This document shows, in pieces, positions 18,109-51,966 of a DNA stretch of 64,000 nt (positions are counted from its first letter, which is position 1; each line of letters begins with the position of its first letter). Origin of the DNA: an uncultured bacterium (GTDB lineage: Bacteria; Elusimicrobiota; Elusimicrobia; Elusimicrobiales; Elusimicrobiaceae). Under the pieces are notes generated by a model. It saw nothing but the letters and a program-made list of their open reading frames with translations. It had not been told where the DNA came from and made no database searches. The translations under genes and the position numbers were made by a program. The DNA lies in the NCBI GenBank assembly GCA_949297775.1, contig CASFTM010000008.1, positions 1-64,000 of the forward strand, given 5' to 3'.

Positions 18109-18840
18109 ATGCAAAACACCTGCCGCCAGTTGCTTAAACTTTTCTTGCATTTTTGGTTTCCGCGCACTTGTTTCGCCTGCGGGCGGGATTTGGCGTGGCG
18201 AACGGAAGATCCTCTTTGCCCGGGTTGCGCCGGCTCCTTAACACCGCCCGGCCCGCTTATTTGCCAGCGGTGCGGGGCCGCGCTTAAAAGCGGCGGGGCG
18301 CATTGTTATGCCTGCCGCGGCGGCAAAGCCCGCCAATACAAGTGCCGGATGATTCGGGCTTCGTTTGTGTTTAACCCTTCTTCGCGCGCGTTGGTACACG
18401 CGCTAAAATACGCCAATGCCGACTATTTGGCCCGGTATATGGGGCGGCTGATGGGAAGAGAATTTGCCCAATACCCGGAGCTGTCGGAAGCGGAAGTGTT
18501 GGTTCCGGTACCGCTGTTTCCCAAACGGTGCCGCCGGCGCGGGTATAACCAAAGCGAACTGCTGGCGCGTGCCCTGGCGGAGACAATCGGCCTGCCGGTT
18601 AACACCGCCGCGCTGGCGCGCGTGCGCGATACCGTCAGCCAAACCACCTTGGGGCGTGCAGGGAGGCTGGCCAATATGTCCGGCGCGTTTTTATGCACGC
18701 GCCCGGCTGAACTAAAGGGGAAAGTGGTTTTGCTGGTGGACGATGTAGCCACTACCGGCGCTACGCTGGAAGGCTGTGCACAGGCCCTGCGTGCGGCGGG
18801 AGCCAAAAAAGTGTACGCGTACACTTTCGCACGGGAATAG
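18109..18840 (+). CDS. comF: ComF family phosphoribosyltransferase-like protein
   Basis: A 243-residue protein. The N-terminal zinc-binding region has four Cys pairs (CFAC at 21-24, then LCPGC, CQRC and CYAC). The C-terminal PRTase domain contains VLLVDDVATTGATL, the PRPP loop, and the family block RRRGYNQSELLA. ComF supports DNA uptake in competent bacteria; type IV pili also feature in uptake, but the link here is only suggestive. It starts 4 nt after the SprA-like gene and is probably co-transcribed. Confidence 0.88.
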   Translation: MQNTCRQLLKLFLHFWFPRTCFACGRDLAWRTEDPLCPGCAGSLTPPGPLICQRCGAALKSGGAHCYACRGGKARQYKCRMIRASFVFNPSSRALVHALKYANADYLARYMGRLMGREFAQYPELSEAEVLVPVPLFPKRCRRRGYNQSELLARALAETIGLPVNTAALARVRDTVSQTTLGRAGRLANMSGAFLCTRPAELKGKVVLLVDDVATTGATLEGCAQALRAAGAKKVYAYTFARE

Positions 18841-28267: not shown

Positions 28268-28510
28268 GCCCTTTTTCTGGCGCCAGAAAAAGGGCGAAAA
28301 AGAGCGCCGGCCCAGGGCCCCATAAAAATCACTTCCAAACGGGACATTTTATAACTCGCGCGTACCGCGCTCAGACAATAAAATTTCTGATCCGTTTGGA
28401 AGGCTTTTTATAGACATAAAATTTCTGATCCGTTTGGAAGGCTTTTTATAGACGGGGCGAAAGGGCCGGTTAAACAGCAACGGCATAAGCGGAAGCGTCT
28501 TCCTTTTTGG
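28268..28510 (+). repeat. structured element B, copy 1
   Basis: It starts with a perfect 28-bp palindrome (28268-28295; half GCCCTTTTTCTGGC). A nested hairpin follows: outer CTTCCAAACGG (28332-28342) with CCGTTTGGAAG (28392-28402), middle ATTTTAT/ATAAAAT, inner GCGCG-TAC-CGCGC (28358-28370). Homology to 51748-51966 continues through AAGGGCCGG and CTTCCTTTTTG. Paired positions differ between the copies in a compensatory way. Confidence 0.7.
28378..28453 (+). repeat. 38-bp direct tandem duplication inside element B copy 1
   Basis: 28378-28415 is repeated exactly at 28416-28453. The unit begins ATAAAATTTCTGATCCG and ends GCTTTTTATAGAC, so the 3' arm of the long hairpin exists twice. Element B copy 2 has the unit once. 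Confidence 0.95.
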
Positions 28511-40280: not shown

Positions 40281-41905
40281 AACGCTGGCTGTGGCCCGTG
40301 CTGCTTTTTTGCGCGTTCCCGGTATGGGGAACGGTGCAGTTTGAAGATTTATCCTACGAAGAAAAATTGGGCCAAACGCTGGTAGTGTTTGTGGATGTGG
40401 ACAGCGCCGAACTGGTGCGCCCTGCCATAGAAGCCGGCAAAATCGGCGGGGTGCTTATCCAATGGGGCACATACTCGCTGGATGAAACCAAAAAACTGGT
40501 AAAAACATTGCAAAGCTGGGCCGCCAAAAGCCCGCACAAAATACCGTTGCTCATATCCATAGACTATGAAGGCGGTACCGTATACACGCCCATTACCTTG
40601 GGCTTTGATTATCTGCCCACCAATATGATGCTTTCCGCCGCGCAGGATGAAGAAGGGGCCGCTTCCATTGCTTATTTAGCCGGTTTGGAATTGCGCCGTG
40701 CCGGCGTGCATATTAACTTCTCCCCGGTGCTGGATGTTAACAGCAATCCCAACAACCCCATTATTGGCGTGCGCTCCTTTGGGTCCGACCCGGCGAACGT
40801 AACCAAAATGGGGCTTTCGTTAATGAACGGCTTTAAAGCGGCGGGGATTATCAGCGTGGTAAAGCATTTTCCGGGCCACGGGGATACCTCCACAGACTCC
40901 CATTATGGCGTGCCGATAGTCAAAGATAGTTATGAACAGCTGCAAAAGGTCCATCTTGCTCCCTTTGCCGAAGCCGTGCGGCAGGGAGTCCCCGGGGTGA
41001 TGACGGGGCATGTGCTTTACCCCGCTTTAGATAGTAAGAACATTGCTACATTTTCTAAACCCATCTTGCAGGATTTGCTGCGCCAACAAATGGGGTTTGA
41101 TGGATTTATTGTAACCGACAGTTTGGATATGAAAAGCGCCACCACTTTTTGTACCATTGCCGGCTGTGCCGTGCGGGCGCTGGAAAGCGGGACCGATATG
41201 GTTTTATTAGGGCGCTATATCAAACCTTTGGCGGTTTTTAACCAAATTTTGCGGGAAACCCGGCAAAAGAAATTACAAGCCCGCGTAGAAGAATCCGCCC
41301 GTCGGATTTTTGATTTAAAAAAGCAGATGGGATTGCTGGATGGTACGCGCGAAGTGCCCGCTCCGATTGAAAAAGCCTATCAAACGGAAATGGAAAAAAT
41401 AAGCAATGAGTTTGTTACCTTGGTTCGTGACCGCAAAAAATTGTTGCCTTTTGTCCCTTCTAAAAACAAAAAACCTACCGTGTGCGCCGTGTTTTTTGCG
41501 CCGTCGCGCTTTGCGGACCAGTTGGTCAGTTTTTCCAAGCCTTTTTTGGAAAAGGGGTGGAACATCCGCACCTATAATGCCGCTTTAACGCCGCGTAAAA
41601 AAGACAGCCAGCGCGCCGCCGCCTGCGCCCGGGGGGCGGACTTACTAGTGGTAACCAGCCTGCAATGGGCAGATAAAACCAACATCAACCAAAAAAACGC
41701 CATTAATGGGCTGATCAACGAAAACAAAAATACGGTTTTTATTTCTACCATGAGCCCGTATGACATAAAAAATTACCCGGAGGCGGACACCGTACTGGCC
41801 ACCTACGGGTTAAATAAATACGCTTTACAAACCGCGGCAAACATTATTTTGGGTAATTTGCCGCCGCAGGGCGTGCTGCCGGTTAAGCTGCAATCGGAAA
41901 ATTAG
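40277..41905 (+). CDS. secreted glycoside hydrolase family 3 (NagZ-like)
   Basis: A 542-residue protein with a signal peptide (about 1-18). The GH3 barrel carries ISIDYEGGTV, FSPVLDVN, KHFPGHGDTSTDSHYG (catalytic His loop typical of beta-N-acetylhexosaminidases) and VTDSLDMKS with the nucleophile Asp. An additional C-terminal domain of about 190 residues is present. It likely removes N-acetylglucosamine from wall fragments or dietary glycans. Translationally coupled to the phosphoesterase; converges on dedA with a 4-nt overlap. Confidence 0.86.
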   Translation: MKRWLWPVLLFCAFPVWGTVQFEDLSYEEKLGQTLVVFVDVDSAELVRPAIEAGKIGGVLIQWGTYSLDETKKLVKTLQSWAAKSPHKIPLLISIDYEGGTVYTPITLGFDYLPTNMMLSAAQDEEGAASIAYLAGLELRRAGVHINFSPVLDVNSNPNNPIIGVRSFGSDPANVTKMGLSLMNGFKAAGIISVVKHFPGHGDTSTDSHYGVPIVKDSYEQLQKVHLAPFAEAVRQGVPGVMTGHVLYPALDSKNIATFSKPILQDLLRQQMGFDGFIVTDSLDMKSATTFCTIAGCAVRALESGTDMVLLGRYIKPLAVFNQILRETRQKKLQARVEESARRIFDLKKQMGLLDGTREVPAPIEKAYQTEMEKISNEFVTLVRDRKKLLPFVPSKNKKPTVCAVFFAPSRFADQLVSFSKPFLEKGWNIRTYNAALTPRKKDSQRAAACARGADLLVVTSLQWADKTNINQKNAINGLINENKNTVFISTMSPYDIKNYPEADTVLATYGLNKYALQTAANIILGNLPPQGVLPVKLQSEN

Positions 41906-42555
41906 TTTCCTTGCGGTTGGCGGCGTGCGTTCCAAAATTCATACACCGCCGGCAGTACGGAAATAACGATAATCGCTACAACCACATAATGGAAATGGTC
42001 TTGCACTACGGGTAAATCCGCAAAAAAGTATCCGCCCAGCGTAAACGCCAGTACCCAAACCGCAGCTCCAATTAAGTTATAAGAGGCAAAGTGGAAGTAC
42101 GTCATTTTGCCGATTCCCGCCACAAAAGGCGCAAATGTGCGGATGATTGGAATAAAACGAGCCAAAATAATCGTTTTTCCGCCGTATTTTTCGTAGAAAG
42201 CGTGGGCTTTGTTTAAGTGGTTTTTATTTAAAAATATACTGTCTTCCTTTGTAAATACTTTGGGTCCCAGCCATTTGCCGATTTCATAATTGCAAAAGTC
42301 GCCCAATACGGCGGCGGCAAACACAACGGGAATAAGCCAATACAAATTGATGGCACTCCCTTCCGCAGCCGCCAGCGCCCCGCAGGCGAATAATAGCGAG
42401 TCCCCCGGCAGGAACGGCGTAACCACCAGGCCCGTTTCGCAGAAAACCACTACAAAAATTACTACATATAGCCAGACGCCCATCCAGGCCGCCCAGGAGT
42501 TCAAATGCACGTCCAAGTGCAGAAAAATATCTAATATTTGTGCTAAAAATTCCAT
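41902..42555 (-). CDS. DedA family membrane protein
   Basis: A 217-residue SNARE-associated/VTT-type protein. FCETGLVVTPFLPGDSLLFACGALA and GGKTIILARFIPIIRTFAPFVAGIGKM are the family blocks, with the F.PG.. and R..P..R residues kept. DedA proteins move undecaprenyl phosphate or phospholipids across the inner membrane. Start at ATG 42555; TACAAT lies 6 nt upstream on - with no ribosome site, so a leaderless mRNA is likely. Confidence 0.88.
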   Translation of the reverse strand: MEFLAQILDIFLHLDVHLNSWAAWMGVWLYVVIFVVVFCETGLVVTPFLPGDSLLFACGALAAAEGSAINLYWLIPVVFAAAVLGDFCNYEIGKWLGPKVFTKEDSIFLNKNHLNKAHAFYEKYGGKTIILARFIPIIRTFAPFVAGIGKMTYFHFASYNLIGAAVWVLAFTLGGYFFADLPVVQDHFHYVVVAIIVISVLPAVYEFWNARRQPQGN

Positions 42556-42602
42556 ATATAAATTGTAGCAAATCATAGAAAAGCATTTCTTTTTGGGAAA
42601 TA

Positions 42603-42650
42603 TTGACGGGAAGGCTTATTTATGATATTATATACTTACCGGTAAGTATA
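42603..42650 (+). promoter_or_regulatory. promoter with perfect 20-bp palindromic operator
   Basis: TTGACG (42603-42608), 17-nt spacer, TATTAT (42626-42631), then TATACTTACCGGTAAGTATA (42631-42650), a perfect palindrome covering the expected start of transcription. The position suits a repressor operator; the ACCGGT centre and 20-bp size resemble sites of TetR-family regulators. No such regulator is in the window. Confidence 0.6.
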
Positions 42651-42669
42651 TTTTAATATAGGACTTCTT

Positions 42670-43338
42670 ATGAAACTATCCAAACATGTAATGCTTGCAG
42701 CCGGTGTATTGGTTGCTTGGTTGTGCGGTTCAACGACAGTGTACGGACAAACGTATCAGGCCCAGGATTGGGTGCTGAGTATGGGCGGAATAATTTCGCC
42801 TGTGGAGCTGGGAAGCGATTGGGGCGAAGTAAACGTGGAAAATATTACTGCGGGAATTACGCACGACGCTAAACTGGGCGAGCCTGGGGTGGGAATAGAC
42901 CTGCAAGCCCTCTATTTTGTGAACCCGCGGTTAGCGGTGGGGGCGGAATTTTCCCAGGAATGGTTTTTAGAAGAACTTTCAAGCGGTTGGTGGGTGGATG
43001 GAAAAACCAGCCAGCAACGTTATTTGCTGGCAGCCCGCGTATACTTAAATCCGCAAAGCAGAGCTAAAGTGTATGCTGCGCTGGGCGGCGGATTGGCTCA
43101 TACCAAAATAAGTATAGATTTTTCCCCGGAGGCGGATTTTTCTTATACAGGTTTTGGCTATTATGTCGGCCTAGGGCTGGATTACGCCCTAAACCACCGC
43201 TGGAGTTTGGGTGCCGAAATGCGGTACAACGGGAATAAATTCCACGACAAACAAACATTGGCAAATGGGGATTTGGCGCAAGTCTATCGGCAGGCTAACT
43301 ATCTGGCCGGCATGTTGCGTGTCAATTACCGAATGTAA
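42670..43338 (+). CDS. outer-membrane beta-barrel protein (OmpA/OmpW-like)
   Basis: A 222-residue protein with a signal peptide (cut near VYGQ, residue 25). The mature part has about eight alternating strands (LQALYFVNPRLAVGAEFSQ, KVYAALGGGLAHTKISID, GYYVGLGLDYALNHRWSLGAEMRYNGN) and ends MLRVNYRM, typical of small barrels. Function unknown. It is preceded by a strong promoter and a palindromic operator, suggesting induced expression. Confidence 0.78.
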   Translation: MKLSKHVMLAAGVLVAWLCGSTTVYGQTYQAQDWVLSMGGIISPVELGSDWGEVNVENITAGITHDAKLGEPGVGIDLQALYFVNPRLAVGAEFSQEWFLEELSSGWWVDGKTSQQRYLLAARVYLNPQSRAKVYAALGGGLAHTKISIDFSPEADFSYTGFGYYVGLGLDYALNHRWSLGAEMRYNGNKFHDKQTLANGDLAQVYRQANYLAGMLRVNYRM

Positions 43339-43365
43339 CAGGAATGGGGGATAAGTCGGGGGGAA

Positions 43366-43401
43366 AACAGGGAGCCTGCCGCAAGGGGCTCCCTGTTCGT
43401 T
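43366..43401 (+). terminator. terminator of the barrel gene
   Basis: AACAGGGAGCC pairs with GGCTCCCTGTT, followed by CGTTTGT; a weak T-run. Confidence 0.75.
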
Positions 43402-43610: not shown

Positions 43611-43676
43611 GCCTCTGGCCCTTGATTTGTTTTTTTTTTTTGATAAATTTTGCGTATGAGCAAAATTTATCAAAAA
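43606..43676 (+). promoter_or_regulatory. pilin cassette 3 control module
   Basis: The GC hairpin has a different sequence, GGCCAG-CCT-CTGGCC (43606-43620), yet the same size and place. TTGATT 43622-43627, T12 43630-43641, TAAATT 43644-43649 (spacer 16), ATG 43656 after 6 nt. Inverted repeat GATAAATTTTGC (43642-43653) / GCAAAATTTATC (43660-43671), identical to cassette 1. Confidence 0.65.
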
Positions 43677-51747: not shown

Positions 51748-51966
51748 GCCCTTTTTCTGGCGCCAGAAAAAGTACCAAAAAGTGCCCGGCCCAGGGCCCC
51801 ATAAAAATCACTTCCAAGCGGGAAATTTTATAACTCGTGCGAGGCGCACTCAAACAATAAAATTTCTTTTCCGCTTGGAAGGCTTTTTATAGACGGGGCA
51901 AAAGGGCCGGATAAACGGCAACGGCAACAGCACAACCACGGCCAAGCGGAAAAACTTCCTTTTTGA
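51748..51966 (+). repeat. structured element B, copy 2
   Basis: Perfect 22-bp palindrome at 51751-51772 (half CTTTTTCTGGC). Nested hairpin: outer CTTCCAAGCGG (51811-51821) / CCGCTTGGAAG (51871-51881), middle GAAATTTTAT (51822-51831) / ATAAAATTTC (51857-51866), inner GTGCG-AGG-CGCAC (51837-51849). GGCTTTTTATAGAC follows the outer arm. Compared with copy 1 both arms change together. Confidence 0.7.

Follow-up and report, generated by a model that had tools for sequence, protein, structure and literature searches.

TtgR is a TetR-family efflux repressor, and the genes of two regulators of comparable systems, acrR and mtrR, lie divergent from their pump genes. The locus that we describe here resembles those of AcrR, MtrR and TtgR in the TetR_N domain of its regulator, in a palindromic operator placed over the promoter and in having the regulator gene beside a tripartite RND pump. 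It differs from AcrR and MtrR in its low overall identity to them and in the position of its tetR, which opens the pump operon and is not divergent from it, and it differs from all three in its probable second target, an outer-membrane barrel gene with a G6 element in the 3' region of its transcript. A further comparison is offered by PfmR (TTHB023) of Thermus thermophilus, for which PMC7022988 cites a predicted site, TACCGACCGNTNGGTN, its abstract giving fatty acid biosynthesis genes, not efflux genes, as the targets. PfmR is also of the TetR family, has a 16-bp site with similar TACC...GGT letters and is a fold match of our regulator (3vpr, 21%), although the centre and half-site spacing of the two sites differ. 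The 3' end of the barrel transcript, an intrinsic terminator behind the reading frame of an envelope protein, is like that of the 3'-UTR-derived small RNAs reviewed in PMC9438474. It is unlike them in that the combination of promoter, operator and 3' end is found here without the reading frame as well, in that no Hfq was found in the genome, and in that the RNA is a candidate. The open-access literature, as far as surveyed, holds nothing on this system. Our results, obtained from sequence alone, assign to uncultured Elusimicrobiota an efflux regulon together with its probable regulator and operator code.

The window, by which we mean the whole stretch of 64,000 nucleotides that was analysed, is part of contig C8 of genome G000 (1.69 Mb). 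Its features relevant to this study are as follows.

41902-42576, minus strand: gene for a DedA-type membrane protein with a VTT domain (PF09335, E 1.2e-20), lying divergent from the barrel gene
42603-42631, plus strand: sigma-70-type promoter, with -35 TTGACG at 42603-42608, a 17-bp spacer and an extended -10 TATTAT at 42626-42631
42630-42651, no strand: 22-bp perfect palindrome ATATACTTACCGGTAAGTATAT, putative TetR operator, with the conserved core TACYTACCGGTARGTA at 42633-42648
42670-43338, plus strand: outer-membrane beta-barrel gene, 222 aa (PF13505 OMP_b-brl, E 8.7e-13, above cut-off), with orthologues in the genus
43357-43363, plus strand: CGGGGGG element behind the barrel stop codon, in the 3' UTR of the transcript, from a G6 comparison across barrel loci
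43366-43397, plus strand: terminator-like hairpin of 12 pairs that closes the barrel transcript, from hairpin prediction

An earlier note on this DNA had described a perfect 20-bp palindrome over the start site of the barrel gene, overlapping a good -10 box with a near-consensus -35. That palindrome, TATACTTACCGGTAAGTATA at 42631-42650, was located and extends by one base per side to a perfect 22 bp, and the promoter matches the consensus at 10 of 12 positions, with a TG preceding its -10 box. Two bases are common to the -10 box and the palindrome, and the probable start site of the barrel transcript (~42638) lies within the latter; the promoters of 25 units were compared in register. The downstream gene, which the note had taken for an outer-membrane barrel, is borne out as such by its PF13505 match, and by eye its protein has a signal-like N-terminus. 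When the window was dinucleotide-shuffled 100 times, four of the shuffles contained a perfect palindrome of at least 22 bp and 11 contained one of at least 20 bp, and the window itself holds three other perfect palindromes of at least 20 bp (at 18808, 28268 and 51751). The length of the palindrome by itself is therefore only moderately unusual, and the case for it rests on its position and conservation. Two of the other long perfect palindromes, at 28268-28295 and 51751-51772, have CTTTTTCTGGCGCCAGAAAAAG in common and may be copies of one terminator or of a repeat element.

A genome-wide search with the 20-mer, allowing up to three mismatches, returned one other place in G000, a 16-bp palindrome (TACCTACCGGTAGGTA) on contig C16, and the exact core occurs in G000 at these two sites only. 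On C16 the core sits 12 bp upstream of the following gene, which is the finding that the earlier note had named as a check, namely the same palindrome before a gene of the TetR family.

G000 contig C16, 52618-53274: TetR-family repressor gene, 219 aa (PF00440 TetR_N, E 5.2e-16, cut-off passed)

This gene heads an operon on one strand in the order tetR, tolC (OEP, 2.3e-64), mfp (HlyD/RND_mfp, 2.2e-46) and RND (ACR_tran, 3.3e-260), so that a TolC/OEP channel, a periplasmic adaptor and an ACR_tran permease adjoin one another as in RND tripartite efflux operons. By eye, the operator abuts the -10 box in the tetR promoter too. When up to three mismatches were allowed, the core was found at 11 places per strand in G000, two of them the exact ones, compared with six for the reversed control; a site with two mismatches that lies inside a response-regulator-like reading frame was not counted as an operator. 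Beyond what the earlier note had proposed, the operator is present also at the efflux operon and, in relatives, at further genes, and the barrel transcript has a G6 element at its 3' end that recurs in promoter-operator units with no barrel gene. An outer-membrane protein gene and the drug-efflux operon that encodes its likely repressor probably have this palindromic DNA switch in common. More specifically, we consider it very probable, from the sequence comparisons, that it is the operator of the C16-encoded TetR repressor, which would be autoregulated at its own efflux operon and would also control the barrel gene.

The distribution of the operator across the genus is in agreement with this assignment. 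Of the 66 genomes searched, 34 have the exact core, at 67 places in total, and none has the reversed control. A TetR orthologue (E<1e-20) is present in 35 of the genomes, which include all 34 with an exact site; the thirty-fifth, G005, has sites with one mismatch. No exact core occurs in the 31 genomes that lack the TetR (Fisher 5e-18, related genomes being treated as independent). Flanks were taken for all 65 exact sites outside G000, and all 67 sites were sorted by neighbour, giving tetR (30), a barrel orthologue (15), a second MFP (10), units without a barrel gene (6), a POTRA-domain protein (2) and YrbL-/Kdo-kinase-like genes (2), with two sites at contig ends. Genes of efflux and of the envelope predominate, with the assignment of the second, AcrA/Mex-type adaptor checked by profile in one of 10 cases and otherwise made by likeness, POTRA checked in one of two and the kinase-like genes in both. 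At the tetR promoters of the genus, the repressor's own operator is exact in 30 of 35, has one mismatch in two and two mismatches in one (G070), and is not recognisable in two, G032 and G009, where the best sites have six and five mismatches, respectively. Without exception, the 33 TetR proteins in the alignment, a set that leaves out those of G011 (truncated) and G070, have VTKPVLYYYFK as their recognition helix.

That the palindrome instead belongs to some other palindrome-binding regulator, or works as an RNA hairpin or terminator, we regard as highly improbable. Perfect palindromes are able to form hairpins, some relatives have further TetR-like genes (weak matches), and sites with two mismatches are present in genomes without the TetR: at up to two mismatches, 47 of 61 genomes have a match, and 30 TetR-less genomes hold 30 sites, compared with 11 for the reversed control. 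Such copies are most numerous in G072 (five) and G079 (four), where they are perhaps due to a diverged regulator or to chance. The exact sites, however, co-occur with one TetR and precede the gene for that very protein, while the palindrome in the window lies over a -10 box and, by eye, is not followed by a T-run. A transcription terminator or a chance sequence was rejected in view of its position, its conservation and its co-occurrence with the repressor.

The barrel genes themselves provide a second comparison. A barrel match at E<=1e-15 was obtained in 30 genomes, with that in G086 and G011 being to a distant paralogue only. Among the 21 TetR-positive genomes with a barrel orthologue, the operator upstream is exact in 15 and has one mismatch in four, compared with none of the seven TetR-negative genomes with an orthologue, whose best sites have four to six mismatches (19/21 versus 0/7; Fisher 3e-5, again with related genomes treated as independent). 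The two TetR-positive exceptions, G077 and G066, show no operator in the 500 bp covered, and the 5' parts of their barrel loci appear truncated or rearranged. Conservation of the palindrome upstream of orthologues, the other check that the earlier note had set, was therefore found at up to one mismatch in nearly all the TetR-positive loci, and together with the C16 copy it supports the note's suggestion that the palindrome is a site for a dimeric repressor of TetR type.

The pairing of repressor and operator extends beyond the genus. In a sample of 80 TetR relatives from public records, the 350 bp ahead of tetR contain an operator with at most one mismatch in 26 of 28 from Elusimicrobiota (four of the 28 were assigned to that phylum by their match to genus genomes) and in seven of 52 others, with none in 80 for the reversed control. 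The Elusimicrobiota count is only partly new evidence because many of the 28 are genomes in the genus set. All seven of these foreign loci except L168 were inspected; L148 was too short, and in the other five (L162, L163, L170, L180 and L191) an adaptor-like and an RND-like reading frame follow the TetR gene by eye. A structure model of an orthologue with 84% identity to the TetR (pLDDT 87.3) has an all-helical fold, and the best 50 PDB matches listed, with TM-scores of 0.54-0.70 on the query and 15-23% identity, are of TetR type. Its fold neighbours include TM1030, DarR, FadR, QacR, MtrR, AcrR and PfmR, and several such entries contain drugs, steroids or acyl-CoA. A toxic or lipid-like inducer, as suggested in the earlier note, would fit the efflux operon, the neighbours QacR, MtrR and FadR and these bound compounds, although this is a guess. 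The C16 TetR scores below the curated NCBIfam equivalog cut-offs for MtrR (48.6 bits versus 280) and AcrR (34.9 versus 271), and by this measure it is not an equivalog of either.

A different arrangement of the same elements was seen in the sister family of the order, where a TetR match opens a 614-661-aa frame in 17 of 24 genomes. TetR_N and OEP were matched in one reading frame by Pfam at L087, the sole fusion locus checked in that manner. Apparent in-frame TetR-TolC fusions, each in a single reading frame of ~620 aa, were seen at L083, L086-L090, L092 and L093 of the sister family and at L141-L143, L145, L150 and L156. The same operator, with no more than one mismatch, is present in all 14 fusion-type loci scanned, pointing to a deep repressor-operator pair. 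The junction of the two parts contains an internal signal-peptide-like stretch, which is preceded by an ATG in L083 and L145 and by GTG and TTG codons in L089, whereas the nearest start in L093 is a TTG ~17 codons before it, and L086 and L087 have no ATG, GTG or TTG in the preceding dozen or so codons. An obligate fusion is likely in the latter two, which have no close internal start, so that some of these organisms seem to produce the channel solely in fused form. The joining of a repressor to an exported channel is odd, and the finding raises the question of how such a protein works; no TetR-TolC fusion was found in the part of the open-access literature surveyed. A 601-aa frame in G002 (contig C36) that had been suspected of being a further example was set aside, as the part of the frame viewed is unlike a fusion.

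We propose the following mechanism for the two promoters of G000. A TetR dimer would bind two ACTTACC half-sites and shut off the barrel promoter by covering its -10 box and start site, and in the absence of ligand it would sit likewise over the -10 and start of the tetR promoter, so that pump, barrel and any RNA from the barrel unit are kept low. Binding of a pump substrate or a membrane-active compound to the repressor would then cause its release. Since the tetR-tolC-mfp-RND operon, with tetR at its head, has a near-identical operator that is placed in the same way, ligand binding would induce the pump and the barrel together, the barrel having a presumed part in the response. The barrel transcription unit ends in the G6 element and terminator, and this end may act as a small RNA.

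The last suggestion adds to the operator explanation and does not replace it. In 18 of the 21 TetR-positive barrel loci a run of at least six G lies within 30 nt of the barrel stop, before the terminator (CGGGGGG in 15 and AGGGGGG in three; G066 has G5, and G002 and G015 have none), compared with none of the seven TetR-negative barrel loci within 60 nt of the stop (Fisher 1e-4). In the window, 10 of 12 G6 runs are in open frames of at least 100 codons and one is in a tRNA-Leu gene, the remaining one being the element at 43357-43363. In addition, promoter, exact operator, CGGGGGG and hairpin are present without a barrel reading frame in G086, G023, G068, G071, G075 and G011, with the CGGGGGG 22-84 bases after the operator and followed by the terminator-like hairpin (identified by tool in L202, by folding in L207 and L248 and by eye in the rest, as were the terminators of most loci). 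The presence of the G6 element and terminator both after the barrel and in six units without it suggests a TetR-controlled small RNA, and it is unusual for a repressor-controlled promoter to be kept where the gene that it serves elsewhere is missing, which points to an RNA with a regulatory role. Relatives that keep the switch without the barrel gene may use it to control only such an RNA.

Retention of the operator in those units would also be expected if it served mainly the divergent VTT (DedA-type) gene. A VTT-type reading frame starts ~40-131 bp from the site, on its other side, in the window and in the loci of twelve relatives (identified there by sequence likeness and with uncertain start codons), and a promoter match of 10/12 directed towards the VTT gene crosses the palindrome (42656-42627), such that the VTT gene may also be controlled. 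As the main function this is unlikely, since the operator of G071 has no adjoining VTT gene, that of G075 has no VTT start in the 333 bp that remain before the contig ends, and the G6 element is left unexplained.

The small-RNA reading, by comparison, is that the main conserved product of the promoter is a short TetR-controlled RNA of regulatory function, which has a G6 segment for pairing and ends in a terminator hairpin and is released from the barrel mRNA or made directly in species without the barrel; we consider it possible but lean slightly against it. The RNA would be induced with the efflux pump, and the barrel frame would be a dispensable passenger that was lost, if the direction is read correctly, in several lineages that retained operator, promoter, G6 element and terminator, a proposal that we make with the same slight reserve. 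On the TetR tree, which includes five of the genomes with barrel-less units, three changes are needed, two of them forced by well-supported branches, but these may amount to one gain and two losses of the barrel. Between G071 and G075, the promoter with operator is 85% and the G6 core 91% identical, compared with 64% for the drifting leader and 49% for the upstream flank, which is unrelated; the coding end of the neighbouring holA (88%) is about as well kept as the operator and G6 core. The corresponding comparison of G086 with G023 (G6 core 98%, flank 97%) is uninformative because the two genomes are too close.

Coding potential and folding give a mixed picture. The units of G086, G023 and G068 appear to be non-coding, as they have no ATG, GTG or TTG between the operator and the hairpin stem. 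In G071 and G075, however, there is a common short frame that ends in AQNKFTGG, the G6 run forming its last two codons, and a short ATG frame spans the run in G011, so that a small peptide is possible in those units. Folding is favourable for the G086 and G068 units (z -5.8 and -4.2, mostly from the terminator), but that of the G071 unit, taken as its first 106 nt with the terminator excluded, does not exceed the folding of shuffles (z 0.8), and that of the 3' end in the window is weak (z -1.6). Also weighing against a small RNA are a search of five loci in Rfam that assigned no family (one chance-level match, E 0.25, far below the gathering score), a survey of C6 targets that gave no convincing one, and eight TetR-positive genomes with neither a barrel gene nor a barrel-less unit. 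The genome, moreover, contains no Hfq that was found, and if the reading is true it would represent a repressor-controlled 3'-end RNA in a genome without a recognisable Hfq. A G-quadruplex as the role of the 3' element was set aside, the window having several G-runs but many relatives a single G6 run by eye.

The C6 target motif TTNCCCCCCG has at least 159 matches in G000, G020, G023, G068, G071 and G086. Among 30 viewed in context, 24 are inside reading frames and two of the other six are the RNA units themselves; no pattern emerged. In each of the six genomes the motif outnumbers its reversed control, and among the matches listed it is strongly strand-biased in G086 (25 versus 4). It is possible that this reflects a strand-biased G-rich motif, though most copies viewed are coding.

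Type IV pilin-like genes, six in number, are scattered singly in the window (3686, 28618, 43650, 48575, 52074 and 61295), all recognised by eye and with a profile check for that at 43650 alone; one such gene lies directly 3' of the barrel unit. Another pilin-like gene adjoins an inverted repeat with related half-sites, TTATTTACCG-AC-CGGTAAATAA, on contig C11 of G000 (L096, ~30652). This site has two mismatches to the core and was not counted as an operator, given its other spacing and its location ~120 bp from the pilin-like gene. Similar sites, TTACCGGTCGGTA, are present in G001 and G071, and the repeat may serve as operator for another regulator of TetR type.
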